Source of the DNA: Alphaproteobacteria bacterium
GTDB lineage: Bacteria > Pseudomonadota > Alphaproteobacteria > TMED109
Direction of reading: 5' to 3'
Assembly: GCA_021296265.1 (NCBI GenBank)
Contig: JAGWAT010000015.1
Location: 1 to 36,506, forward strand
Length of the DNA stretch: 36,506 nt
Shown: positions 3,195-17,925 of the stretch, one piece after another
How the letters are laid out: each line of letters begins with the position of its first letter
Position numbering within the stretch: the stretch's first letter is position 1
Position numbers and translations under genes: made by a program
Notes under the pieces: model-generated
Told to the model about the DNA's origin: nothing
Databases searched by the model: none
The model's input: only the letters and a program-made list of their open reading frames with translations

Positions 3195-4160
3195 TCAAAA
3201 GCAGACCTTCACCAGCGAGAAGTCGTCTGGCAGCGGTCCGTCTCCGTTGTGCGCTTGCACCCACCGATAAATCTCCGTCGGTCCCCGGCTGGTGTCGGTG
3301 CTGGCGAAATCGACTAAATCCTTTTGAGACAGCATTTTGTCGTCAGTGACGGGAATTTCATAGGCACCGTCGCTGTAAACCAGCAATTGATCGCCCGGCT
3401 TGACGGTCGTGGTGGCCTCAGGGAATTGAAGATCTGGGAACGTCCCGATCGCCACGTTCCCCTTGTTGCCCAGCAGCTCGATGGAAACGGCGCGGTCGTC
3501 AGGAGACCGTTCATGATCAACGCCCAGCAAGATGGCCGGCGGGTGCCCTCCGGATGAGTACCGCAATTCTCCGGTACGCTGATCATGCACTCCGTACCAT
3601 ATCGTGAAAAACATATTGTTCTGATTTTCCATTGGAAACGTATCGTTCAGCGTCGCTAGAACCGAGCTTGGATCCTGGAAGTCGACACTCGACATCGCCT
3701 GTGCCCGCAAGACATTGATGACGGTCGCAGACAACAGTGCGGCGCCGACGCCGTGTCCACAGACGTCAATCAAGTAAATTGCAAAATGGTCGGGGTCGAT
3801 GTGGTGATAGCCGAAAGAATCACCACCGAGTTCTGTTGACGGCTCAAAATACCATTGGGTGCTCGGCCACTCAGTGCGCGGCTCGGGCAGGATTGACCTC
3901 GCGTAATGAGAGGCCTCATTTAGCTCTTCTTCCAACCTTGCTTGGGTGCGTTGCAGCAGGATGTTGCTCTCCGCGAGCTGGTCCTCCACTGCTTCTCCGT
4001 GCGCGATCGTCGCCTCATAGAGCAACTTGAGATCATCGTGTTCGGCTTCCAGCTCAGCTAGCTGGCGTTTGGTTTCTGCAAGCACGCCTGCCAGGGCGGG
4101 AGCCAGCTTTGCTTCCTCCTGTCCCCGGCCGGTCAAGCCATCAGTACCCTTCGTGGACAT
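3195..4160 (-). CDS. Soluble PP2C-type (SpoIIE/RsbU-like) serine phosphatase with N-terminal coiled coil
   Basis: The 321-residue protein has no membrane segment. Residues about 18-85 are charged and heptad-like (AETKRQLAELEAEHDDLKLL and on), predicting a coiled coil. The SpoIIE/PPM phosphatase domain fills about 88-321, with the metal-binding motifs GGDSFG (D114), IDVCGHGVGAAL (D132), YSDGAYE (D264) and PDDFSLVKV (D312/D313). Such enzymes dephosphorylate STAS-domain anti-anti-sigma-like proteins in partner-switching systems. The coiled coil probably transmits a signal from a partner, since no receiver, PAS or GAF domain is present. The gene is transcribed away from the operon beginning at 5217, which encodes the matching kinase and STAS proteins plus a second, membrane-bound phosphatase. 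I infer that it acts on the same circuit. No strong ribosome binding site precedes the ATG. Confidence 0.88.
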   Translation of the reverse strand: MSTKGTDGLTGRGQEEAKLAPALAGVLAETKRQLAELEAEHDDLKLLYEATIAHGEAVEDQLAESNILLQRTQARLEEELNEASHYARSILPEPRTEWPSTQWYFEPSTELGGDSFGYHHIDPDHFAIYLIDVCGHGVGAALLSATVINVLRAQAMSSVDFQDPSSVLATLNDTFPMENQNNMFFTIWYGVHDQRTGELRYSSGGHPPAILLGVDHERSPDDRAVSIELLGNKGNVAIGTFPDLQFPEATTTVKPGDQLLVYSDGAYEIPVTDDKMLSQKDLVDFASTDTSRGPTEIYRWVQAHNGDGPLPDDFSLVKVCF

Positions 4161-5216
4161 TGGTCTGGCTCGTTCTCAATGGGGGCAGGATGATCTTTGT
4201 GCAGATTCTGATGAGCTTACAGGAAAGTGTCAATGCGAGGGTATCTGTGTTTCGGTTGGACAAGTCCGGTTAAGCCAATGAGTTTCTGACCAGTATCAAG
4301 GTCTCATAGGCGAGATGGGTCCGACGGGCACGTCGGTGAATCCGGTGCCATGGTCTGCCGAAGGAGGCGAGTGCGAGGGCCCGCTTGAGCTGGCGAAGCA
4401 AGGCACTTGCGTGCATCGTGAAGGCCCTGCGCTGCCGGGTAGCCGCGGGAACGGGGAGCCCTGAGCGTGCCAACTTCGGAGAGCTTGCGGCCCCGGGGGA
4501 TTGTGCGTTCGACCAGACGTCCGGGCAGGGACCTGCGGCGAGCTTCTAAACCGAAGGCGCCGTCTGATGGCAGACAAAGTCAAAGCTTCGCAGGACGGGC
4601 CGCTTTCGCTGACGCTCCAAATTGCTGCGGGAAGTGCCGCGCCGATGGCGATCGATCGTGCTCGCTGTTCTGGCTCATCAGCGATCTGGAACACTGAATG
4701 CAGTTCGCTTGCCCGAGAAGCTGCGCCCGTCAGCTGAGATCAATAACTTGCCTGGTGGACCTCCAGCACGAGTGTGGGTGGGCGCGGGATTCCCTTATCC
4801 GGCCGCAGCACAGCTGTCCATGTGGCGCGCTGCCGCCACCCCTGCTCCTATGGCAACCGCCCTTGCGGCCATTTGGGCTGCGATCAACGGGCCGGTCAAC
4901 TTCAGATCGCGATCGAGCCACATCCGAACTACATGTCAACGATACGATATCCGCACAGTCTTATGGTATCCTGTACGCGGTTCATGACCTATGCTATAGG
5001 TCACCGTCAAGCAACCGGCGAAATTCTGACAGTCTCTCAATCGAAGAAGGTTGTTGCAGCGATTGAGGGGCGGAATCGAGCCGGTCCAAGAGTTGTACAC
5101 GATGGCGGGCGACCGGTTGCGCACCACTTTTGATCCCTTCGATGGTGACTGGCTTCGACGATGGGTTCCCCCTCGACCTCTCTTCGTGCCGGCCAGATCG
5201 CGCGGCTGGTGACGAT
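4161..5216. other. 1-kb gap between the soluble phosphatase and the partner-switch operon
   Basis: This 1,056-base stretch separates two divergent transcription units and should hold both promoters. Several short open frames cross it on both strands, but none shows a domain, a good start or consistent coding character. A remnant of a mobile element is possible but I cannot identify one. The one striking element is a 19-bp dyad at 4985-5003. Confidence 0.45.
4985..5003. promoter_or_regulatory. 19-bp perfect dyad, operator-like
   Basis: TGACCTAT-GCT-ATAGGTCA is an inverted repeat with 8-bp arms and a 3-base centre. It lies 214 bases before the start of the first gene of the signalling operon, in otherwise unstructured AT-richer DNA. 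The symmetry suggests a site for a dimeric DNA-binding protein controlling this operon or the divergent phosphatase gene. As RNA the loop would be tight, so a DNA operator is the better reading. Confidence 0.45.
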
Positions 5217-5738
5217 ATGACCGACACCCAGATGGGCGGCCTTCCTGACGATGGCTTCAAGCCTCTAATTGAATTCGATTTGGACACAACTGTACTGGAT
5301 GATCAGTGGATCTATTGTGACTTCATGTCTTCATTCGTTGCGAGTATGGTCAGTCACAATCGTGGTGACCCGTTCATGTTTTCGAACCTTCTTTCGGCAA
5401 CGCTGAACGAGTTGTTCGAGACGGTCTATCGCACCGAGAAGAAAGCAGGACAATTTCGTTTTCGCATGCTCCAGAAGGGGTCCGTCGATCGGATTACCAT
5501 GGTTGTGCCCTGCGGTCGGGACGAACAGCAATTTTACTTGAAGACGGTTGAGGAAGTTCGCGCTCCGGGCGCATCGGACAAATACTTGGAGCTTCTATTT
5601 TCTGACGATAAGTTGGATCGTCGCGTCGGTCTGTTTGAACTAGCCATTTCGTACAAAGCCCAGATGTCGGCTGTTGCGGTTGAAGACAAAGCGGTCTGTC
5701 TGACGATTGATTTGGTCATTGAGCGAGAGACGGACTGA
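5217..5738 (+). CDS. Degenerate GHKL/SiaB-like (DUF6272-type) ATPase-fold protein
   Basis: The 173-residue protein appears to be a diverged paralogue of the kinase encoded at 9306. Both share a W-x-x-C element followed by S and F (W31, C34, S39, F40 here) and an LNELFE helix at the position of the N-box. Here only N64-E65 of the N-box remains (the second asparagine is a threonine), and the glycine-rich ATP lid is replaced by RRVGLFELAISYKAQ. I infer a pseudokinase or binding-only partner. The ATG at 5217 is preferred because it starts the compact fold, but an in-frame start at 5130 is possible; neither has a strong ribosome binding site. The stop overlaps the next start by one base (TGATG), so it is probably coupled to the methyltransferase fusion. 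It is first in the operon. Confidence 0.6.
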   Translation: MTDTQMGGLPDDGFKPLIEFDLDTTVLDDQWIYCDFMSSFVASMVSHNRGDPFMFSNLLSATLNELFETVYRTEKKAGQFRFRMLQKGSVDRITMVVPCGRDEQQFYLKTVEEVRAPGASDKYLELLFSDDKLDRRVGLFELAISYKAQMSAVAVEDKAVCLTIDLVIERETD

Positions 5739-6913
5739 TGGCGACCCCCGTTTCCACATCGTACGAATTTGGATACGACGACAACGATCAGGTCTTTACC
5801 TTGGCCGGCTCCATGCGCCCTCAGGACATCAGTGAGATTGATGCATGTTTGGAAGCGCTGCGGACGTGTGCGGGGCAGGTTACCGGGATGTTCTATGTCA
5901 ACGTGCGTCGGCTGCTGCAATCGAACAATGTGGCATTCAACGGTCTGGCGTCCGTGCTGACGGAGATTTGCCAGGAGAGGCCCGACGTCAACGTGACCAT
6001 CACGATGTCCAGTGTTGTGGGCTGGACACCAAAAAAATTCAATGCGCTACGTCGCAGGATCCCCCGCATTGACGTTGTGGAGTACGACAAGGACTTCTAC
6101 CCTGGACAGACATTTGTCGAAGACAGTTCGTTTGTTTCCGTCCTACGGAAACAGACCACGATGACCTGGCGGCACGAGAAACATATTCTCCTTCGCCACG
6201 GCATAGCCGAGGGCATGAAAATCGCCGACATCTGCTGCGGGATCGGCGACTTCGCGCTTCTGCTGTTCAAGGAGTTCAACCCAACGTACGTCGTGGCCCT
6301 GGATCATGCCAAGGCCAGCCTCGATTATGCGCGCAAGATGGCAAAGGAATTCAACGTCACCGGTGTCGAGTACGTGTACGGGGATGCCGCTGAAATACTC
6401 CTGCCGAGCGGCGAGTTCGATTTCGTGACGTGCCGGCATTCGCTCCAGGTCTTTGATCGGCCCGAACGGATCTTGTCGGAACTGCTCCGCATTTGTAAGC
6501 CTGGTGGCCGCGTCTACGTCACGAACGAAAAGAATTCCCACTGCCTCGGCGAGCCGCGTGCAGAATCGATTCAGTGGACTTACAACGAAGTCGCCAAACT
6601 GTGGAAACATTTCAATATGGATATCGAAATCGGCCCGAAGAGCAGGAGACTCCTGCTGGATGCAGGTTTCGTGGATATCCGGATGGAATCCTTCATGGTG
6701 ACCAACCTTGACGGAGACCCGGAGGAGTTTGCAGACGTCATTCGGACATGGAAGAACATGTTCGCCGACAGCATGGCCAGAGAGCGCGGCGACGATGAGG
6801 CATTCATAAGGAAATTCAAGAAGGGCTTCGACGACCACATCTTTGCTGCAATGCATCCCAAAGGCTACGCGGGCTGGCCGATTTGGGTTGCTTCCGGACG
6901 GAAACCGCTGTGA
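5738..6913 (+). CDS. STAS-like domain fused to a SAM-dependent methyltransferase
   Basis: This 391-residue protein joins two domains. Residues about 1-125 resemble the stand-alone STAS regulator encoded at 9931: LAGSMRPQDISEID aligns with EGTMRLSGTEAYQP, and YVNVRRLLQSNNVAFNGLASVL aligns with the strand-helix around its NSSG switch site. Here the NSSG serines are not clearly conserved; S62 is the nearest. Residues about 140-391 form a class I methyltransferase, with motif I IADICCGIGDFALLL (162 on), an acidic-end strand VALDHAKASLDYARK, and EFDFVTCRHSLQVFD followed by LLRICKPGGRVYVTNE. The substrate is unknown; the fold resembles UbiE/Methyltransf_11-type small-molecule or lipid methylases. 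I infer that the STAS-like domain lets the neighbouring kinase and phosphatase control catalysis or localisation. It overlaps both neighbours, by 1 and 4 bases, so translation is probably coupled. Confidence 0.8.
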   Translation: MATPVSTSYEFGYDDNDQVFTLAGSMRPQDISEIDACLEALRTCAGQVTGMFYVNVRRLLQSNNVAFNGLASVLTEICQERPDVNVTITMSSVVGWTPKKFNALRRRIPRIDVVEYDKDFYPGQTFVEDSSFVSVLRKQTTMTWRHEKHILLRHGIAEGMKIADICCGIGDFALLLFKEFNPTYVVALDHAKASLDYARKMAKEFNVTGVEYVYGDAAEILLPSGEFDFVTCRHSLQVFDRPERILSELLRICKPGGRVYVTNEKNSHCLGEPRAESIQWTYNEVAKLWKHFNMDIEIGPKSRRLLLDAGFVDIRMESFMVTNLDGDPEEFADVIRTWKNMFADSMARERGDDEAFIRKFKKGFDDHIFAAMHPKGYAGWPIWVASGRKPL

Positions 6914-9291
6914 ATCCGGCTCAGGACGATACCGGCAGATGGTCGCTGGGGCGCTTTTCGCTCCGCAGTTTTCGCGCCAAGTTTGTGCTGGTGGTTGGCG
7001 CCGCAGTGGTGTTCGATCTGGCGCTGTCCGGCGGAGTGTCAATATGGAACATGCAGCGTCTGTCCGAAGGCGCGCGGCAGGAGATCAGCGAAGGCCTGAC
7101 ACAGTCCACCGAGCAGTTTCTGCAAACCTCCATCGAAATGACGACGGCGCAGGCCGACCTGTTGCTGGAACGGGTGCATTCCGAGGTCACGATGCTGGCC
7201 AACGGCATGCAGTTCCTGATTGACCACCCCGACGTGAAAGGCGATCTCGGTGCGGCGATTACGGCCGAACCTGAGCTGACGAGCCCACTGGTTTACAGCC
7301 CTGAAGGCGGATGGTCGCAGAATTTGCCTGGCGCGCCGTCCGCGGTCAGCGTCTGGGGATACCTGCTGGATGAGAATCGCCAGCCCCTCCCGGCCACCGC
7401 TCAAGAAATTCGCGACAGCAAGTTTCTCGACTTGATGGGGCCGGCCCTCATGAACACCGGTGCACCCAAACTGCAGGTCTATTACGTGGGGCCAAAGCAC
7501 GCCTCGATCCTGAGGGCCACGCCGTATTCGGAGCAGGCCCAAACGTTTGACAAGCTGTACCCCGGTCACAATGACGGCCCCAATTTCTGGGATTTCTTTT
7601 TCCCTGGCGTGTACGAGGGCTGGCAGTCGTGGCTGGCCGACCCGAGCACCAGGCAGGTCGATTCCAATATCGTGATGACCGAGCCCTATGTCGACGCGAT
7701 TACCGGCATCCTGATCGTTAGTTTCTTCCATCCGCTCTGGACGGCCGATCGCACAGACGTCGCTGGAATGGTTGCCGTTGACATTACGCTCGATCAGCTG
7801 ACCTCGCTGGTCGAGAGCGTCACGTTGGCCGATACCGGTTTCGGTTTCTTGCTGATGTCGAATGGCAATGTCATTGCCATCAACGAGTCCGGCGAAAAGA
7901 CCATCGGGCTGGTTTCTAGCGACGTCGGCGGCCAGGGTGTGACCGGAATCGACAGATCAATCCGCAACAGCGTGCATCCGGCGATTGCGGAGATGCTTCT
8001 GCCGACCGGAAGCGATGTCACGATCCAGCATTTGACCCTTGATGAGAATGGCGAGGGGACCGCCTATCTGGTCATCCAGAAGCAGATGTTCCCGGCAAAC
8101 TTGTGGAATCCGGACGGTATTGTCAGGGAGAACATGACCGTCGGCTTCGTGGTGTCGGAAGAGGAGGTGTATCAGCTTCTGACGGCCGTTGAGGGCGGGA
8201 TCTCTGATGCAACTTCGCGCATTTTCAATTTACAGATCGCAGTCTTGTTGGTCAGTCTGCTGATCGTGTTCGTTGCCGTTTATGCAATATCCGGCCGCAT
8301 CACGGCAGGCTTGAGCGCCCTCGCCAGCGGGGCCAGGAGGCTGGAACAGAAGGACTATTCGGTTCGTGTCAGGATTCCCACCCGCGACGAGGTTGGCAAG
8401 GTGGGAGTCGCGTTCAACAGCATGGTGCAGGAGATCCAGTATCATACCGAGAATCTTGAGAACCTAGTGGAAGAACGGACGCGGAACCTCGAAGAAGCCA
8501 ACCAGGAAATCGTCTCTCTTAACGAGCAGCTACGAAGCGAGAATCTGCGTCTTGGAGCCGAGCTGGACGTCGCACACCGGATTCAAAAGATGGTACTTCC
8601 GCGAGTTAGCGAGTTGGACCAGATACCCAGACTGGAGATCGCCGGTTACATGGAACCCGCCGACGAAGTTGGCGGTGACTACTACGATGTCTTGCAGGAT
8701 GGTTCCCGCATCAAGGTAGGTATCGGCGATGTAACCGGGCATGGTCTCGAGAGCGGCGTGCTGATGCTGATGGTTCAGTCAGTCGCGCGAGCTCTCTACG
8801 AGAAAGGAGATCGAGACAACAAACGATTCCTCGAAATTGTGAACCGTGCGATCTTCAAGAATATCGAACGTACTGAATCCGACAAGCACTTGACGTTGGC
8901 GTTCGTCGACTACGATGACAATGAATTGACGTTGACCGGGCAGCACGAGGAAGTCTTGGTGGTTCGAAGCGATGGCTCCCTGGAGCGCATCGATACCATG
9001 GATCTCGGGTTCCCGATCGGCCTCGAATTCGACATTGCGCCCTTCATCAATGCCCGCAAGTTGGCGTTTAATAGCGGTGATACCCTCATCCTTCACACGG
9101 ACGGCGTGACGGAAGCGGAGAATTCGGAAGGCGTGCTGTATGGCCTCGACCGCCTCTGTGACAGCGCGCAGGCAAATTGCCGAGGCCCCGCCGTTGACGT
9201 CGTCAACGGCATCGTCACGGATCTCAAATCGCACATTGGGGCGCAGAAGATCCATGACGACATAACGCTCTTGGTCATGAAGCACCGGTAG
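6910..9291 (+). CDS. Membrane sensor serine phosphatase (extracytoplasmic sensor-HAMP-PP2C), SiaA-like
   Basis: The 793-residue protein starts at a GTG whose last bases form the TGA of the previous gene (GTGA). A first membrane helix lies at about 23-43, a large extracytoplasmic region resembling a double Cache sensor at about 45-435, a second helix at about 440-464, then a HAMP domain (GRITAGLSALASGARRLEQK and on, to about 515) and a coiled coil around NLVEERTRNLEEANQEI. The SpoIIE/PP2C domain occupies about 560-793, with metal ligands in GGDYYDV (D590), GDVTGHG (D607), HTDGVTEA (D731) and HDDITLL (D784). This is the architecture of SiaA, which senses outside conditions and dephosphorylates its STAS partner. 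The ligand is unknown. Its place between the STAS-methyltransferase and the kinase gene supports a single signalling pathway. Confidence 0.92.
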   Translation: MNPAQDDTGRWSLGRFSLRSFRAKFVLVVGAAVVFDLALSGGVSIWNMQRLSEGARQEISEGLTQSTEQFLQTSIEMTTAQADLLLERVHSEVTMLANGMQFLIDHPDVKGDLGAAITAEPELTSPLVYSPEGGWSQNLPGAPSAVSVWGYLLDENRQPLPATAQEIRDSKFLDLMGPALMNTGAPKLQVYYVGPKHASILRATPYSEQAQTFDKLYPGHNDGPNFWDFFFPGVYEGWQSWLADPSTRQVDSNIVMTEPYVDAITGILIVSFFHPLWTADRTDVAGMVAVDITLDQLTSLVESVTLADTGFGFLLMSNGNVIAINESGEKTIGLVSSDVGGQGVTGIDRSIRNSVHPAIAEMLLPTGSDVTIQHLTLDENGEGTAYLVIQKQMFPANLWNPDGIVRENMTVGFVVSEEEVYQLLTAVEGGISDATSRIFNLQIAVLLVSLLIVFVAVYAISGRITAGLSALASGARRLEQKDYSVRVRIPTRDEVGKVGVAFNSMVQEIQYHTENLENLVEERTRNLEEANQEIVSLNEQLRSENLRLGAELDVAHRIQKMVLPRVSELDQIPRLEIAGYMEPADEVGGDYYDVLQDGSRIKVGIGDVTGHGLESGVLMLMVQSVARALYEKGDRDNKRFLEIVNRAIFKNIERTESDKHLTLAFVDYDDNELTLTGQHEEVLVVRSDGSLERIDTMDLGFPIGLEFDIAPFINARKLAFNSGDTLILHTDGVTEAENSEGVLYGLDRLCDSAQANCRGPAVDVVNGIVTDLKSHIGAQKIHDDITLLVMKHR

Positions 9292-9305
9292 CGGGACGGC
9301 GACGG

Positions 9306-9857
9306 ATGCTCCAACAGATTGGAAATATCGGTGCCATCGGGACGTTTGGGGCCGGTTCGCTGCGTCTACGACTCTTCGACGGTCCACTTGGCTTGGCTTG
9401 GAAGCACTGCGGGATTACGTCGGATTTCCTGGGAGACATTTATTCGGCTCGCGCCCACCAGGGGTCTGTTGAAGCGAATGAGATCCGCCACAATGTGACT
9501 TATCTGGTAAACGAAATCCTGGAGAATGCCCTGAAGTTCAAGGTTTCGGGCGATATTGTCATCGATACATTGGTGGAGGAGGACCAGTTTCGACTTTGCA
9601 TTGCCAACGTGATCAGTGAAGCGGGGGCGCTTCGTTTCCAGGAGGTCCTGAGCGGGTTGAAGGGCCGCGATCCATCGGAACTCTTGATTGAGCGGATAGA
9701 ACGGAATGCGGCCGACCCGAAAGAAACCGGTTCGGGGCTCGGCCTGCTCACGTTGATGAGCGATTACGGTGTACAACTGGGCTGGGACTTCCGGAAGCCG
9801 GCCGAGGAGAATGGAACGGTCCAGCTGGGTACCTATGCAGTTTTGCCGCTGGCATAG
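9306..9857 (+). CDS. SiaB / slr1658-type (DUF6272) GHKL serine kinase-like protein
   Basis: The 183-residue protein has the small ATPase fold of anti-sigma-factor-type kinases. An N-box NEILENALKF (N69, E73, N74) would bind magnesium and ATP, and a glycine-rich ATP lid, ETGSGLGLLTL (140-150), lies near the C-terminus. There is no phospho-accepting histidine domain or membrane segment. In SiaABC-type systems such a kinase phosphorylates a serine of a STAS-like protein and is opposed by the PP2C phosphatase. The gene begins 14 bases after the phosphatase gene and precedes the STAS gene, as expected for that trio. Its degenerate paralogue is encoded at 5217. Start: an ATG at 9306 preceded by a GGGACGG stretch. 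Confidence 0.82.
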   Translation: MLQQIGNIGAIGTFGAGSLRLRLFDGPLGLAWKHCGITSDFLGDIYSARAHQGSVEANEIRHNVTYLVNEILENALKFKVSGDIVIDTLVEEDQFRLCIANVISEAGALRFQEVLSGLKGRDPSELLIERIERNAADPKETGSGLGLLTLMSDYGVQLGWDFRKPAEENGTVQLGTYAVLPLA

Positions 9858-9930
9858 AGTGCGATATGCTGGTATTCGCGTGTATTCAAGCGCATCCCCT
9901 TCCCAAATGAGCTACGGGTGATTGTGTCAC

Positions 9931-10269
9931 ATGGAAATCAAAACGAGTGAATACCGCATATGGGTCGAGGATGCGGCTATCCATTACGAAGGAACAATGC
10001 GACTATCCGGAACAGAGGCCTATCAGCCGATAATGGAGCTGATGCACAACGTACTCAATTCAGAACCTGAGGAAATTACGCTGGACTTGGTGGGCTTGGA
10101 GTTCTTAAACAGCTCCGGCATCAATTTGCTTGCACGCTTTACGATAGAAGTGCGGAAGCAAAAGAGTATTGCAATTCTCGTTAAGGGCTCCACGCGAATT
10201 CCCTGGCAATCGAAGTCGCTACCAAACCTGAGGAAACTACACCCATCGCTCCAACTTAACTTCGTGTAG
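9931..10269 (+). CDS. Stand-alone STAS-like regulator, slr1659 superfamily
   Basis: This 112-residue single-domain protein has the STAS anti-anti-sigma-like pattern: an N-terminal strand EYRIWVEDAAIHYEG, LRLSGTEAY-like turn region at about 23-31, then ITLDLVGLEFLNSSGINLLARF. In that last segment S61/S62 match the phosphorylated serine region of SpoIIAA-type proteins. The tail RIPWQSKSLPNLRKLHPSLQL is typical of slr1659-like members. It is the predicted substrate of the upstream kinase and phosphatase and, once dephosphorylated or phosphorylated, would bind a target protein. The ATG at 9931 begins the domain exactly; TTG at 9922 is possible but less likely. The gene ends the operon and is followed by a hairpin. 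The STAS-like domain fused to the methyltransferase is its paralogue. Confidence 0.85.
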   Translation: MEIKTSEYRIWVEDAAIHYEGTMRLSGTEAYQPIMELMHNVLNSEPEEITLDLVGLEFLNSSGINLLARFTIEVRKQKSIAILVKGSTRIPWQSKSLPNLRKLHPSLQLNFV

Positions 10270-13360: not shown

Positions 13361-16012
13361 ATGGCGACAGCCACGACCACATCGGAGATTCGCGCCGCAT
13401 TCCTGGATTACTTTCGGGCGCACGAGCACGAGGTACTGCCATCGTCGCCGCTCGTGCCCCGCAATGATCCGACGCTGCTGTTTACCAGTGCCGGCATGGT
13501 CCAGTTCAAGAACATCTTTACGGGCCAGGAGAAGCGGAGCCACCCCCGCGCCACCACATCGCAAAAATGTCTACGGGCCGGCGGCAAGCACAACGATTTG
13601 GAAAACGTTGGCCATACCGCGCGTCACCACACGTTCTTCGAGATGCTTGGGAATTTTAGTTTCGGTGACTATTTCAAGGAGCAAGCAATCGAGCACGCTT
13701 GGACGCTGGTTACCCGAGAGTTCGGCGTCAGTGGCGAGCGGTTGCTGGCCACGGTCTACGCGGACGACGACGAGGCGTTCGATCTGTGGCGAAAAATTTC
13801 CGGACTGCCTGAAGAACGCATTCTGCGGATTGCGACGTCGGACAATTTCTGGGCCATGGGCGACACAGGCCCGTGCGGACCGTGTTCGGAACTTTTCTTC
13901 GATCATGGAGACCGGGTACCCGGTGGACCGCCGGGAAGTCCGGACGAGGACGGAGACCGGTTCATCGAAATCTGGAACCTCGTCTTCATGCAGTACGAGC
14001 AGGAAGCACCGGATCGCAGGGTCCCGCTGCCACGGCCGTCGATCGACACGGGCATGGGGCTCGAACGCATGGCTGCCGTCATGCAGGGATTCACGGACAA
14101 CTACGACATTGACTTGTTCCGCGTCCTGATCGAGGCATCGAAGGCGGCAACGGGCACGGACGAGAACGATGGGCGCGCCGTCTCGCACCGGGTAATTGCG
14201 GACCATCTCCGGGCCTCGGCGTTCGTCATTGCGGAGGGCGTGCTCCCCTCGAATGAAGGGCGCGGTTATGTCTTGCGCCGCATCGCGCGCCGGGCCATGC
14301 GGCATGCCCACCTGCTCGGCGTTCGCGAACCAGTGCTGTGGAAGATCGCGAGCAGTGTCGTCGCGGAGATGGGGGATGCTTTCCCGGAGCTTGTCCAAGC
14401 GCGAACGTTGATCGCGGAGACCCTGCTGGGGGAGGAAGCGCGTTTTGGCGAGACGCTCGAGCGCGGCATGCGTCTCCTCGCGAGTGAGACGTCGAAGCTG
14501 GGAGAGGGGATCGCCTTGCCTGGAGCAACGGCCTTCCAGCTTTATGACACGTACGGTTTCCCGATCGACCTGACGGAGGACATTCTGCGCGGCGAAGGTC
14601 GGGCGCTGGACCGGGCGGGGTTCGACGAGGCGATGTCCGAGCAGCGGCGGATGGCGCGCGCCGCCTGGGCCGGAACCGGAGACGCCAAGGTGGATCGGGT
14701 CTGGTTTGACGTTCGTGATGCCACCGAGCCCACCGAGTTCCTGGGGTACGCCGGCACCCGCGCCGAAGCGGTGGTATCGGCGATTGTGGCTGACGGCAGG
14801 CAGATTCGCCGGGCGGATGCCGCAAGTGGTGTCATCGGGGTGGTGTGCAACCAGACCCCGTTCTACGCCGAGGGTGGTGGACAGGTTGGCGACAACGGCA
14901 CGATCCGATGGCCGAACGGGACCGTCCAGGTGACCGACACGCGCGCTTGCGCGGAAGTACTGCACGTCCATTTCGGGACAGTTGAAGACGGCGAATTGCA
15001 TATCGGCGATTCCGTCGAGCTGGCGGTCGACGAGGAGCGGCGCGGTGGCCTGCGGATCCATCACTCAGCAACCCACCTACTGCACGCGGCATTGCGCCAG
15101 CACCTCGGTGACCACGTCATCCAGAAAGGATCGCTGGTCGCTCCGGATCGCCTCCGCTTCGATATCAGTCACCCGCGGGCAGTGACGGCCGGGGAACTCG
15201 CGGACATCGAACGCAAGGTCAACGGATGGATACGGGCAGATGTATCCGTGGAGACCCGTCTCCTGCCACCGGATGATGCGATGAAAGCCGGTGCCCTTGG
15301 CCTGTTTGGCGAAAAATACGGGGACGAGGCACGGGTGGTTCGGATGGGTCCGGTGGCCGGCCCAACGTTTTCGCTGGAACTTTGCGGCGGCACCCACGTG
15401 GCCCGAACCGGCGAGATCGGATTGCTGAAAATTGTCTCGGAATCAGCGCTTGCTTCCGGTGTTCGGCGACTAGAGGCTGTCGTGGGCCAAGCGGCTCTCC
15501 AATTGTTTCAGGATCACGCCCGCACGCTCGATTCCGTCGCCAATGGCCTCGGCGTCCGGCAACAGGAACTAGCCGACCGAATCGAGCGGCTTCTCAAGGA
15601 ACGTCGCGACCTCGAGCGGACGATTGCCGACCTGCGTCAGAAACTGGCACGCGGAGACACTGGGACCATTGCCCCGACCGAAATCGCCGGCGTGCGGGTT
15701 GCCGGGAGGGTTCTGGACGGTGTCCCCCCGAAGGTGCTCCGGGGTCAGGCCGAGGACTTGCGGAATGCACTCGGAAGCGGTTTGGCGGTCGTGGTGACAT
15801 CCTTCGAGGGGAAGGGCTCTCTGGCAGTCGCCGTCAGCGAGGATCTGACGGACCGCTTCGATGCGGTCGACTTGGTGCGGGCAGGCGTCGCCGCACTTGG
15901 CGGGCAGAAGGGGGGCGGTCGGCGCGACATGGCCCAGGGCGGCGGTCCTGACGGGGCGGCCGCCGGCAAGGCGCTAGATGCGGTTCAGCAAGCGATAGGA
16001 CGGGTGGAATAA
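13361..16012 (+). CDS. alaS: Alanyl-tRNA synthetase
   Basis: The 883-residue class II synthetase charges tRNA-Ala. The catalytic domain starts with EIRAAFLDYFRAHEHEVLPS and includes the class II motif region LLFTSAGMVQFKNIF, KCLRAGGKHNDLENVG and the glycine-rich GMGLERMAAV. The editing domain, which clears mischarged Ser/Gly-tRNA, carries the zinc-site motifs HSATHLLHAAL and CGGTHVARTG. The C-terminal region has a coiled segment near QELADRIERLLKERRDLER and a DHHA1-type domain ending GGGRRDMAQGGG. Length and domain order are standard. The end of the gene faces icd with only 13 bases between the two stop codons, and no terminator is visible there. Confidence 0.98.
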   Translation: MATATTTSEIRAAFLDYFRAHEHEVLPSSPLVPRNDPTLLFTSAGMVQFKNIFTGQEKRSHPRATTSQKCLRAGGKHNDLENVGHTARHHTFFEMLGNFSFGDYFKEQAIEHAWTLVTREFGVSGERLLATVYADDDEAFDLWRKISGLPEERILRIATSDNFWAMGDTGPCGPCSELFFDHGDRVPGGPPGSPDEDGDRFIEIWNLVFMQYEQEAPDRRVPLPRPSIDTGMGLERMAAVMQGFTDNYDIDLFRVLIEASKAATGTDENDGRAVSHRVIADHLRASAFVIAEGVLPSNEGRGYVLRRIARRAMRHAHLLGVREPVLWKIASSVVAEMGDAFPELVQARTLIAETLLGEEARFGETLERGMRLLASETSKLGEGIALPGATAFQLYDTYGFPIDLTEDILRGEGRALDRAGFDEAMSEQRRMARAAWAGTGDAKVDRVWFDVRDATEPTEFLGYAGTRAEAVVSAIVADGRQIRRADAASGVIGVVCNQTPFYAEGGGQVGDNGTIRWPNGTVQVTDTRACAEVLHVHFGTVEDGELHIGDSVELAVDEERRGGLRIHHSATHLLHAALRQHLGDHVIQKGSLVAPDRLRFDISHPRAVTAGELADIERKVNGWIRADVSVETRLLPPDDAMKAGALGLFGEKYGDEARVVRMGPVAGPTFSLELCGGTHVARTGEIGLLKIVSESALASGVRRLEAVVGQAALQLFQDHARTLDSVANGLGVRQQELADRIERLLKERRDLERTIADLRQKLARGDTGTIAPTEIAGVRVAGRVLDGVPPKVLRGQAEDLRNALGSGLAVVVTSFEGKGSLAVAVSEDLTDRFDAVDLVRAGVAALGGQKGGGRRDMAQGGGPDGAAAGKALDAVQQAIGRVE

Positions 16013-16025
16013 GCGAGTCGGCGGT

Positions 16026-17246
16026 TCAGAGTGCGTCCCGCAGGTTCTCGGCGATCGCATTGAGGAACGGTTCGGTCTCGAGCCAGCCCTGATCCGGACC
16101 GACGAGCAGGGCCAGATCCTTGGTCATCTTGCCGGACTCGACCGTAACCTGGCACACGTTCTCCAGCGTCTCGGCGAACTTCTGTACGTCGGGCGTGTCA
16201 TCAAATCGCCCGCGGTGCCACAGGCCCCGGGTCCAGGCGAAAATCGATGCAATCGGGTTGGTCGAGGTCGCCTCGCCTCTCTGGTAGGCCCGGTAGTGAC
16301 GGGTCACGGTGCCGTGGGCGGCTTCCGCCTCGATCGTTTGTCCATCGGGCGTCATCAACACCGAGGTCATGAGGCCGAGGGATCCAAATCCCTGGGCCAC
16401 GAGGTCGGATTGAACGTCGCCGTCATAGTTCTTGCAGGCCCAGAGGAACCCGCCTTCCCACTTGACCGCGCTGGCCACAAGATCGTCGATCAGACGATGA
16501 CCGTATTCCAGGCCCGATTCCGCGAACGCTTCGGCAAATTCAGAGTCGAACACGTCCTGGAAGATATCCCGAAATCGTCCGTCATACTGTTTTAGGATTG
16601 TGTTCTTGGTCGACAGATAGACGGGCATTTTGAGATTGAGCCCGTACCGCAGGCATGCCCTCGCGAAACCGCGGATGGATTCGTCAAGGTTGTACATCCC
16701 GAGGGCAATACCGGCCTCTTTGAACCTGAACACTTCGGTTTCGGTCGGCGGCTCCCGCCCGTCCGGTTCGAAGCGCATCACCAGGCGGCCCGGGCCGGGG
16801 ACGCGCAATTCCGTGGCGCGGTACTGGTCACCGAAAGCATGACGGCCGATGATGATCGGCTTGGTCCAGCCGGGCACGTACCGCGGGATGTTGCGGAAAA
16901 TAATGGGCTCGCGAAATACCGTGCCACCAAGGATATTGCGGATCGTCCCGTTCGGAGAACGCCACATCTTCTTGAGGCCGAATTCCGTCACCCGGTCCTC
17001 GTCCGGCGTGATCGTCGCGCACTTGATACCGACGCCGTGTTCGCGGATGGCGTGCGCCGCTTCCACCGTCACGCGGTCGTCGGTTTGATCACGGCTCTTG
17101 ACGTGCAAGTCGTAGGTTTCGAGGTCCACGTCGAGGTGGGGAAGGATTAGACGTTCCCGGATCATTTCCCAGATGATCCGGGTCATTTCGTCTCCTTCGA
17201 GTTCGACCAGAGGGGATGTGACCTTGATTTTGCTCACGGAATGCAT
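16026..17246 (-). CDS. icd: NADP-dependent isocitrate dehydrogenase, dimeric eukaryote-like type
   Basis: The TCA-cycle enzyme oxidatively decarboxylates isocitrate to 2-oxoglutarate and makes NADPH. The 406-residue length and motifs fit the dimeric class found in alphaproteobacteria and eukaryotes: [13 protein letters not shown] near the N-terminus, [18 protein letters not shown] at the substrate site, [20 protein letters not shown] with the metal-binding aspartate, and [12 protein letters not shown] in the cofactor site. The ATG at 17246 has a GGAG a few bases upstream; GTG four codons on is an alternative. It follows the LOG-family gene by 37 bases on the same strand, so they may be co-transcribed. 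2-oxoglutarate supply links it indirectly to the nitrogen-regulation genes farther right. Confidence 0.97.
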
Positions 17247-17283
17247 GCTCCAAGTGTGGGAAAGGGATGACTGGCGACGGCGT

Positions 17284-17925
17284 TCAGCCGCCGCGCACCA
17301 CTGAATCCGGTGTTGCGAGCTGCTTGCTGACTGCTTGCACGGCCGCCTCGGCGGAATCCACCTTGACTACGATGGAATCAAGAATGTCGGGAAGAAACTC
17401 CTGCTCCACCATGCGTTCGAGCATCGTGAACATGGGCTCCCAGTAGCGGTCGATGTCGACCACCACGACGGGACGGGGGTGCTGCTTGAGTTCTCGCAGC
17501 ACCAGCGTTTCCATGATTTCGTCCATGGTCCCGATTGCACCGGGGAGGGCCACGCAGATGTCCGATGCGTTGAACATCATGGTCTTGCGGTCGGCCAGCG
17601 AATCCACGATGACGGTCCGCTCCAGGGACGAATGCGTTTCCTGCATCGACGCAATGTAGACGGGGACAAAACCGGTGGTCAGGACCCCCGCTTCCAGGGC
17701 ACCGTCGGTTACGGCTCCCATGAGCCCGTGCTGCGAACCGCCAGTGACGATGCCGTAGCCTGCTTCGCCCAGTCGCCGTCCCAGCTGGCGGGCCTCCTGC
17801 GCAAATCTGGGATTGCTGCCCGCTCGGGAACCACAGAACACCAGTACGGTACGCCTCTTACCGGCATCGGAGGGGTTGGGGCGCATGCACGCGGGTAGCG
17901 TTGTCCTGCCCAAAGATTGTCCCAT
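17284..17925 (-). CDS. LOG-family (TIGR00730) protein, putative nucleoside 5'-monophosphate phosphoribohydrolase
   Basis: The 213-residue protein has the LOG/lysine-decarboxylase-like Rossmann fold: [15 protein letters not shown] near residue 30, [28 protein letters not shown] containing the catalytic-region arginine, and [15 protein letters not shown]. Family members cleave cytokinin riboside monophosphates or other nucleotides to release the base. In the signature PGG-x-GT-x-x-E the second glycine is alanine here (PGAIGTMDE), while the glutamate is kept, so activity is plausible but specificity may differ. The first ATG is used; a second ATG at codon 14 would still keep the domain intact. 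It is upstream of icd in the same direction. Confidence 0.88.

Follow-up and report, generated by a model that had tools for sequence, protein, structure and literature searches.

A probable Bgr-like partner-switch cassette with a STAS-methyltransferase fusion and a predicted pseudokinase in an alphaproteobacterial lineage

What does a partner switch control when it carries two kinase/STAS pairs, one of which appears degenerate and is joined to an enzyme? This question is raised by six signalling genes, one on the minus strand and five on the plus strand, within positions 3195-10269 of contig JAGWAT010000015.1 (assembly GCA_021296265.1, Alphaproteobacteria bacterium), which was analysed as a stretch of 36,506 nucleotides and is referred to as the window. 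A sequence-only reading had described these genes as a duplicated SiaABC-like switch with two PP2C phosphatases, two kinase-fold proteins and two STAS modules, one of them fused to a methyltransferase, and we found all of these parts in place. An explanation as a partner switch of the Bgr type, known from the plant symbiont Sinorhizobium meliloti, with the methyltransferase as its output in this lineage seems to us evenly balanced between right and wrong. The genes and two diagnostic residues, with their positions in the Bgr order, are as follows.

3195..4160, minus strand: soluble SpoIIE-type PP2C phosphatase, oriented divergently to the core and diagnostic of subtype A; Pfam SpoIIE, 134.8 bits
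5217..5738, plus strand: K1, predicted pseudokinase with slr1658-like fold, BgrS position; NF047703, 30.5 bits, E 2.1e-7
5738..6913, plus strand: fusion, BgrT position; slr1659-like STAS domain (amino acids 7-112) and class I methyltransferase (about amino acids 130-391)
5930..5932, plus strand: Val65 of the fusion, aligned to acceptor Ser62 of STAS2
6910..9291, plus strand: sensor phosphatase, BgrU position; Cache-like, HAMP and SpoIIE PP2C parts; start at GTG 6910 preferred
9306..9857, plus strand: K2, kinase, BgrW position; N-box NEILENA, G2 loop TGSGLG; NF047703, 160.7 bits
9931..10269, plus strand: STAS2, stand-alone STAS protein with NSSG motif, BgrV position; NF047705, 145 bits
10114..10116, plus strand: Ser62 of STAS2, the residue expected to be phosphorylated (second Ser in the NSSG motif), from alignments

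The score of K2 lies above the cut-off of 100 for the slr1658 superfamily (NF047703), and that of K1 below it. K2 also matched DUF6272 with 22.7 bits (cut-off 26.6), and no Pfam match was obtained for K1. The N-box of K1 reads NELFETV, the second Asn being gone, and the G2 loop is missing. In a motif alignment of 26 loci, from which the frameshifted locus L058 was left out of both kinase row sets, the N-box Asn and the SGLG of the G2 loop were each absent from 25/25 K1 rows and present in 25/25 K2 rows. Both features were likewise lacking from K1 in all of six further loci of subtype B (defined below), five of which are too short to reach K2 and STAS2. An AlphaFold2 model of K1 built on 13 rows reached a predicted local distance difference test (pLDDT) value of 87.7; its first matches in the PDB were SpoIIAB with a sigma factor (1l0o, E 8.2e-4), followed by SiaB of the SiaB-SiaC complex (6kko, E 8.7e-4, template modelling score about 0.6). 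As far as alignments and model can tell, K1 keeps the kinase fold and has lost the motifs of the ATP site, as the sequence-only reading had proposed for one of the two kinases.

For the STAS modules, STAS2 scored above the cut-off of 100 for the slr1659 superfamily, and the N-terminus of the fusion (amino acids 7-112) below it with 29.8 bits (E 5.7e-7). Profile-profile comparison matched the fused STAS domain to STAS2 with a probability of 96.8 (E 2.2e-10), ungapped across the acceptor region, and K1 to K2 with a probability of 94.7 (E 6.1e-8). These values support a common descent of the two kinase/STAS pairs, as judged from their profiles, and they bear out the earlier assignment of a STAS-like fold to the N-terminus of the fusion. 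Within the window, the two kinases are only 24.8% and the two STAS domains only 17.9% identical, less than K1, K2 and the fused STAS domain each share with their counterparts in a distant Acidobacteria locus (values below), and a recent duplication was therefore rejected; the duplication appears to be old.

The remainder of the fusion is a methyltransferase (Pfam Methyltransf_11, amino acids 164-260, 65 bits at a cut-off of 21.2), which best resembles small-molecule enzymes, namely UbiE/MenG-like proteins, the protein 3mgg of Methanosarcina mazei and phosphoethanolamine methyltransferases. The window's methyltransferase domain shares 59.0% identity with its counterpart in an Acidobacteria metagenome-assembled genome (MAG; locus L056), compared with 29.0% for K1, 32.6% for K2 and 27.8% for the fused STAS domain. 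Across the 21 pairs of the seven genomes that sample the window's genus (G000-G006, 92-97% complete, 2.5-3.8 Mb), the median ratio of nonsynonymous to synonymous substitution rates (dN/dS) was 0.030 for the methyltransferase domain, 0.039 for STAS2, 0.045 for the sensor PP2C, 0.067 for the soluble PP2C, 0.118 for the fused STAS domain, 0.130 for K2 and 0.141 for K1 (maximum 0.237). By these comparisons, the methyltransferase domain appears to be the most conserved part of the cassette. The low medians of K1 and the fused STAS domain also indicate that both, although degenerate, are under purifying selection. Hence, K1 is not decaying, and its interpretation as a decaying relic was rejected on the basis of dN/dS and conservation. 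Since the six genes keep their order and orientation in 6/6 congeners and their median dN/dS values range from 0.03 to 0.14, the set is more than a chance assembly.

Conservation of the gene order, which the sequence-only reading had made a condition of its proposal, extends far beyond the genus. We read 26 loci including the window, all of which had been found via the fusion or STAS2. In 26/26 loci, from Alphaproteobacteria to Acidobacteria, a five-gene core of pseudokinase, STAS-methyltransferase, sensor PP2C, kinase and STAS protein occurs in one order. The slot upstream of K1 is variable: it holds the soluble PP2C in 13 loci (subtype A, comprising the window, the six congeners, L050, L052, L053, L054, L063 and L056) and a GGDEF-EAL protein in the other 13 (subtype B), and none of the 26 locus stretches showed both. 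In L056 the soluble PP2C is co-oriented with the operon and an extra slr1659 protein is inserted, and in L065 (subtype B) the GGDEF-EAL protein appears in two pieces. The two subtypes formed a single split (support 96/100) in a tree of 24 rows, so that their traits are not independent observations. The 26 loci also contain near copies, namely three S. meliloti strains as well as L016 and L050, whose fusions are identical.

The fusion is rare and scattered. Among 61 genomes near the window it was detected (E ≤ 1e-20) in seven, the window's own and its six congeners, and it was absent at this threshold from the 54 other genomes of the family and class that were searched. A wider fusion profile (E ≤ 1e-60, with at most four candidates scored per genome) found it in 6/398 genomes drawn from the phylum, and the five besides the window's own share one family. 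Matches to slr1659 above the cut-off occurred in 3/385 genomes drawn from the class, all from the window's genus, and weaker, mostly partial matches in 48 others. A contig scan with two peptide patterns yielded at least 11 fusion loci, five of which lie outside the genus and its near copies; these five were from a Gammaproteobacteria MAG (76% identical fusion), Rhizobium sp. RU36D (65%), Mesorhizobium loti (61%), a Rhizobiales isolate (57%) and the Acidobacteria MAG (48%). On plasmids, 194/72,556 records matched the fusion, 120 of them over at least 80% of its length, with Sinorhizobium (82/194) and Rhizobium (29/194) leading. Of 203 pattern-matching stretches on viral contigs, a single one encodes a relative, which is 25% identical and covers the methyltransferase part only. 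This patchy spread suggests horizontal transfer.

Some of the records call for comment. In L058 (S. meliloti AK57 pSymB), K1 and the sensor PP2C seem frameshifted, unlike in the two other S. meliloti records, which could be due to sequencing error. The contig L050 belongs to a MAG titled Rhodobacteraceae, and the identity of its fusion with that of the congener L016 is likely explained by an error in binning or naming. In the plasmid records L059 (7483-7989), L060 (7468-7983) and L062 (9742-10260), K1 bears the annotation ‘ubiquinone biosynthesis methyltransferase UbiE’, a label that has probably spread from the fused neighbour; in plasmid record L067 it is a ‘hypothetical protein’. Beside the cassette of L056, on the other strand (14844-17540), lie RsbW-like, STAS and further PP2C frames, so two partner-switch modules seem to adjoin there, as far as frames read by eye and a PP2C match by search can tell.

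The NSSG motif with its acceptor Ser was found in 27/27 STAS2 rows, to which L056 contributes two. At the site in the fused STAS domain that corresponds to Ser62 of STAS2, 13/13 loci of subtype A carry V, I, L or M, Val being the residue in the window. We take Ser62 of STAS2 to be the equivalent of SpoIIAA Ser58. With both PP2Cs, K2 and the Ser-bearing STAS2 retaining intact motifs, the window contains the set that is general to PP2C/GHKL kinase/STAS partner switches, and STAS2 is in all likelihood the substrate of K2 and PP2C.

The presumed output was addressed by searching the seven genomes of the genus for enzymes of cyclic di-GMP (c-di-GMP) turnover. Neither GGDEF nor EAL domains were detected in any of the seven, while the same searches were positive in 8/14 and 6/14 control genomes, respectively; this absence is notable for genomes of 2.5-3.8 Mb. 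Hence, c-di-GMP is unlikely to be the output. The cyclase arm known from S. meliloti is probably missing beyond the locus as well, and c-di-GMP itself is probably missing from the organism. In addition, each of the seven genomes has two SpoIIE phosphatases, both within the cassette, as are its two slr1658-family kinases. Because of the absent GGDEF and EAL domains and because the sole two SpoIIE phosphatases sit in the cassette, the methyltransferase would be the likeliest output in the window's lineage, perhaps acting as a second output in rhizobia; that it is an output at all we hold to be somewhat better than an even proposition. The earlier claim that the circuit controls the methyltransferase thus gains from the missing c-di-GMP enzymes. 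Phosphorylation of the fused STAS domain is not supported in the window, where the acceptor position is Val.

On these grounds, the cassette could operate as follows. K2 would phosphorylate STAS2 on Ser62, and the sensor PP2C would remove this phosphate, possibly along with the soluble PP2C, which would then supply a second input. K1 would phosphorylate nothing and would instead serve as a docking protein for either the fused STAS domain or unphosphorylated STAS2. When the sensor PP2C or, alternatively, the soluble one is active, unphosphorylated STAS2 would accumulate, draw K1 off and alter methyltransferase activity. As it is not phosphorylatable at the canonical site, the fused STAS domain would signal solely via which partner holds K1. 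The sequence itself shows which parts have kept their catalytic motifs; how these parts bind, which way control runs and what the enzyme acts on are inferred. The arguments for K1 as the exchanged partner are about as strong as those against it. As a best guess, the methyltransferase is the target, with the pseudokinase and the free STAS protein as competing partners. More specifically, and at slightly less than even odds, we tentatively propose a matched dead pair, consisting of the pseudokinase and the acceptor-less, enzyme-borne STAS domain, for which the live pair decides which STAS the pseudokinase holds and thereby drives the methyltransferase. The genus would then show the switch without its second-messenger arm and with its enzymatic arm kept, and in rhizobia the two arms may run in parallel.

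Several observations weigh against this mechanism and are considered here together with the alternatives. The first concerns the acceptor position in subtype B. Here, the fused STAS domain has Thr in the first 13/13 loci and, among the six further loci, Thr in four and Ala in two. A rule that loci with GGDEF-EAL always carry Thr, which held at first in 13/13, therefore failed in 2/6 further loci. Taken over all 32 loci, 17 carry Thr at the acceptor position and 15 a residue that cannot be phosphorylated, and Ser does not occur. With Thr in 17/19 loci of the GGDEF-EAL type, the fused STAS domain of subtype B may itself be phosphorylated. K2 could then act on both the fused STAS domain and STAS2, with the enzyme switched by its own phosphate and K1 as a scaffold. 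This would agree with SiaC, which the sequence-only reading had cited for serine phosphorylation and which, according to the part of PMC7647112 dealing with it, carries its phosphate on Thr68. However, the hydrophobic residues in all 13 subtype A loci including the window, and the Ala in 2/19 subtype B loci, speak against direct phosphorylation, which we consider very unlikely. In the window's genus, a Ser located three residues before the acceptor position of the fused STAS domain could in principle be used for phosphorylation.

Structure searches form a second point. For the fusion, a model built on 13 rows (pLDDT 76.3, predicted template modelling score 0.67) has strands and helices arranged in a STAS-like succession, followed by a class I methyltransferase, but the 50 PDB matches shown were all methyltransferases, with 3mgg, also the top PDB match of the fusion by sequence, in first place. 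What identifies the STAS part is consequently its profile matches by sequence, together with the succession of its strands and helices. K2 had no significant match by sequence in the PDB (best E 0.093), and STAS2 had a weak one, the best being RsfB (E 0.0063).

Third, the proposed exchange of K1 was compared with mirror-tree correlations, computed as partial correlations given phosphatase and methyltransferase distances for 21 loci, without L056, and without L056, L055 and L067, respectively. The values in these three data sets were 0.59, 0.62 and 0.36 for K1 and the fused STAS domain, 0.54, 0.54 and 0.52 for K1 and STAS2, 0.46, 0.60 and 0.57 for K2 and STAS2, 0.22, 0.42 and 0.32 for K2 and the fused STAS domain, 0.32, 0.43 and 0.47 for the two kinases, and 0.44, 0.40 and 0.26 for the two STAS domains. 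Both K1 correlations with a STAS domain exceed that of K2 with the fused STAS domain in each data set, an order that fits the model weakly; the contrast is weak because every one of the six pairs correlates positively and the data set is small.

Fourth, regulators outside the cassette could be what the two PP2Cs serve. All seven genomes contain, outside the cassette, a STAS gene adjoining an RsbW-like HATPase_c_2 gene, plus one more STAS gene, and none has a SpoIIE phosphatase there. In the window's own genome these are:

L078, 4281-5067: RsbW-like kinase gene and adjoining STAS gene, with counterparts in the six congeners
L079, 3301-3636: separate STAS gene with SSAG motif, with counterparts in the six congeners

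STAS2 or the phosphatases could thus act on other regulators, leaving the methyltransferase as a passenger with a docking domain. In line with this, the output described for S. meliloti in the relevant part of PMC7647112 is the cyclase BgrR, and slr1659-like STAS proteins do occur away from the core. One such protein is encoded at 8001-8345 of L076, from the Burkholderia ambifaria MC40-6 plasmid pBMC401, among hypothetical genes; it is about 42% identical to the cassette STAS2, and no other cassette match was found within 8 kb of it (16 kb stretch). Against an output outside the cassette speak the occurrence of the fusion in 26/26 loci, a count that is partly due to construction since loci were found via the fusion, the constraint on the methyltransferase domain, the strongest in the cassette, and the membership of its STAS domain in the cassette's own family. 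We regard this alternative as unlikely.

The methyltransferase could also act upstream, being recruited by its STAS domain to methylate a part of the switch, e.g. the sensor phosphatase, for feedback or adaptation. Its fusion to a docking domain and its constant linkage with the sensor PP2C would suit such a role, but its closest similarity is to small-molecule methyltransferases, and we judge this possibility quite unlikely. The methyltransferase as output of a partner switch remains our preferred reading.

The two phosphatases differ in their domains. The soluble PP2C (cut-off of the SpoIIE model, 25 bits) gave no membrane or sensor domain in Pfam and NCBIfam searches, and its N-terminus reads like a coiled coil by eye. 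Its only close relative on plasmids is in a record of Rhizobium jaguaris (60%), the remaining 9/10 plasmid records matching it at E ≤ 1e-20 being at most 37.8% identical. The sensor phosphatase matched SpoIIE with 119.4 bits and HAMP with 41.6 bits; dCache_1 (34.2 bits, E 2.6e-8) stayed under its Pfam cut-off of 45. As its start, GTG 6910, which overlaps the stop codon of the methyltransferase gene, is more likely than TTG 6883. Both PP2Cs retain the motifs GGD, D-V-x-GHG, [ST]DG and DD-[FI]-[ST]-L, which are presumably the metal-binding motifs of this fold. In 15/19 loci (starts chosen by script), the gene of K1 shares 1 or 4 bases with that of the fusion, as one would expect if the two proteins are produced jointly. 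Between the soluble PP2C and K1, the gap of roughly 1 kb (938-1213 bases in the seven genomes) can be aligned only in patches; we saw no reason to call a gene there, where no family search was made. The surroundings look ordinary. Translations read by eye resemble CoA ligase and alaS downstream and, farther on, icd, Trk potassium uptake and Ntr genes. An apparently truncated gene at 2390-2815 on the minus strand encodes the N-terminal half of an ABC transporter ATPase (Pfam ABC_tran, positions 2-71 of 137) and has an early stop.

If the preferred reading is true, the cassette would be a partner switch driving a methyltransferase rather than a sigma factor or cyclase, and perhaps an example of a dead kinase that is teamed with a dead substrate to form a switch. 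Bgr has been described through its cyclase in the accessible parts of PMC7647112 and PMC8457831, and our comparison suggests that it is the methyltransferase, rather than this cyclase, that always accompanies the core. It also suggests that a pseudokinase and a STAS domain without acceptor serine accompany this enzyme across phyla, and that a lineage without detected c-di-GMP enzymes still keeps the switch. In the open-licence literature searched, no title pointed to a STAS-methyltransferase switch, which does not prove its absence in print, and Bgr itself came up by name only in PMC7647112 and PMC8457831.

Compared with the classical pairs SpoIIAA/SpoIIAB and RsbV/RsbW, the window shares a STAS protein with a GHKL kinase, and SpoIIAB tops the structural matches of K1; no sigma factor gene was seen in the cassette, in which the competing ligand would be an enzyme. 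The cyanobacterial slr1658/slr1659 families (NF047703/NF047705) include K2 and STAS2 by score; K1 and the fused STAS domain fall below the cut-offs and are related by E-value and profile comparison. Synechocystis slr1658 mutants are tied to recovery from iron limitation and to Pgr5 expression in the part of PMC7555055 on these genes, which mentions no methyltransferase fusion such as that of the window.

The SiaABCD system of Pseudomonas aeruginosa also combines a HAMP-PP2C, a GHKL kinase and a STAS-like protein in one enzyme-directed operon, and the K1 model resembles SiaB. A true SiaABC-type system acting via a cyclase encoded elsewhere could draw on this similar domain set and on the 126 bits of the sensor PP2C with the SiaA model. 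However, all Sia models scored far below their cut-offs: SiaA (NF038263, cut-off 700) with these 126 bits and with 29 bits for the soluble PP2C, SiaB (NF038262, cut-off 85) with 24.3 bits for K2 and K1 not listed, and SiaC with 12.1 bits for STAS2 (NF038265, cut-off 150; 13.9 bits against the cut-off of 24.5 for Pfam PF09345). With GGDEF, the domain of a SiaD-type cyclase, in 0/7 genomes, the membership in SiaABC proposed earlier was rejected, and such a system is extremely unlikely. The window differs from SiaABCD in the lack of a cyclase, in its second, degenerate kinase/STAS pair and in the methyltransferase fused to STAS.

By sequence comparison, the nearest described system is thus apparently not SiaABC but BgrRSTUWV of S. 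meliloti, of which the primary study is reportedly that of Baena et al. 2019, and the cassette very probably belongs to a Bgr-like family. On pSymB of S. meliloti 1021, locus L061 contains GGDEF-EAL protein, K1, fusion, sensor PP2C, K2 and STAS2 in the order R, S, T, U, W, V; as this record has no annotation, we infer its identity with bgrRSTUWV from content and order only. Counting from neighbouring genes, the locus presumably corresponds to SMb20447-SMb20452, tags under which no paper was found in the open-licence literature searched. The testable claim that follows concerns the roles of BgrS and BgrT in this strain. In the described switch, as far as the consulted parts of PMC7647112 and PMC8457831 go, the phosphatase BgrU and the kinase BgrW together determine how far the STAS protein BgrV is phosphorylated and thereby how active the cyclase BgrR is, and BgrSTUWV affects the synthesis of mixed-linkage beta-glucan, reportedly through c-di-GMP (PMC7647112). 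The window differs in having a divergent soluble PP2C in place of the BgrR-type GGDEF-EAL protein of the operon, Val instead of Thr at the acceptor position of the fused STAS domain, and a host genus without GGDEF or EAL match. It shares with S. meliloti a PP2C/kinase/STAS trio like BgrU/BgrW/BgrV, and the core order S-T-U-W-V is the same in the window and in L061.

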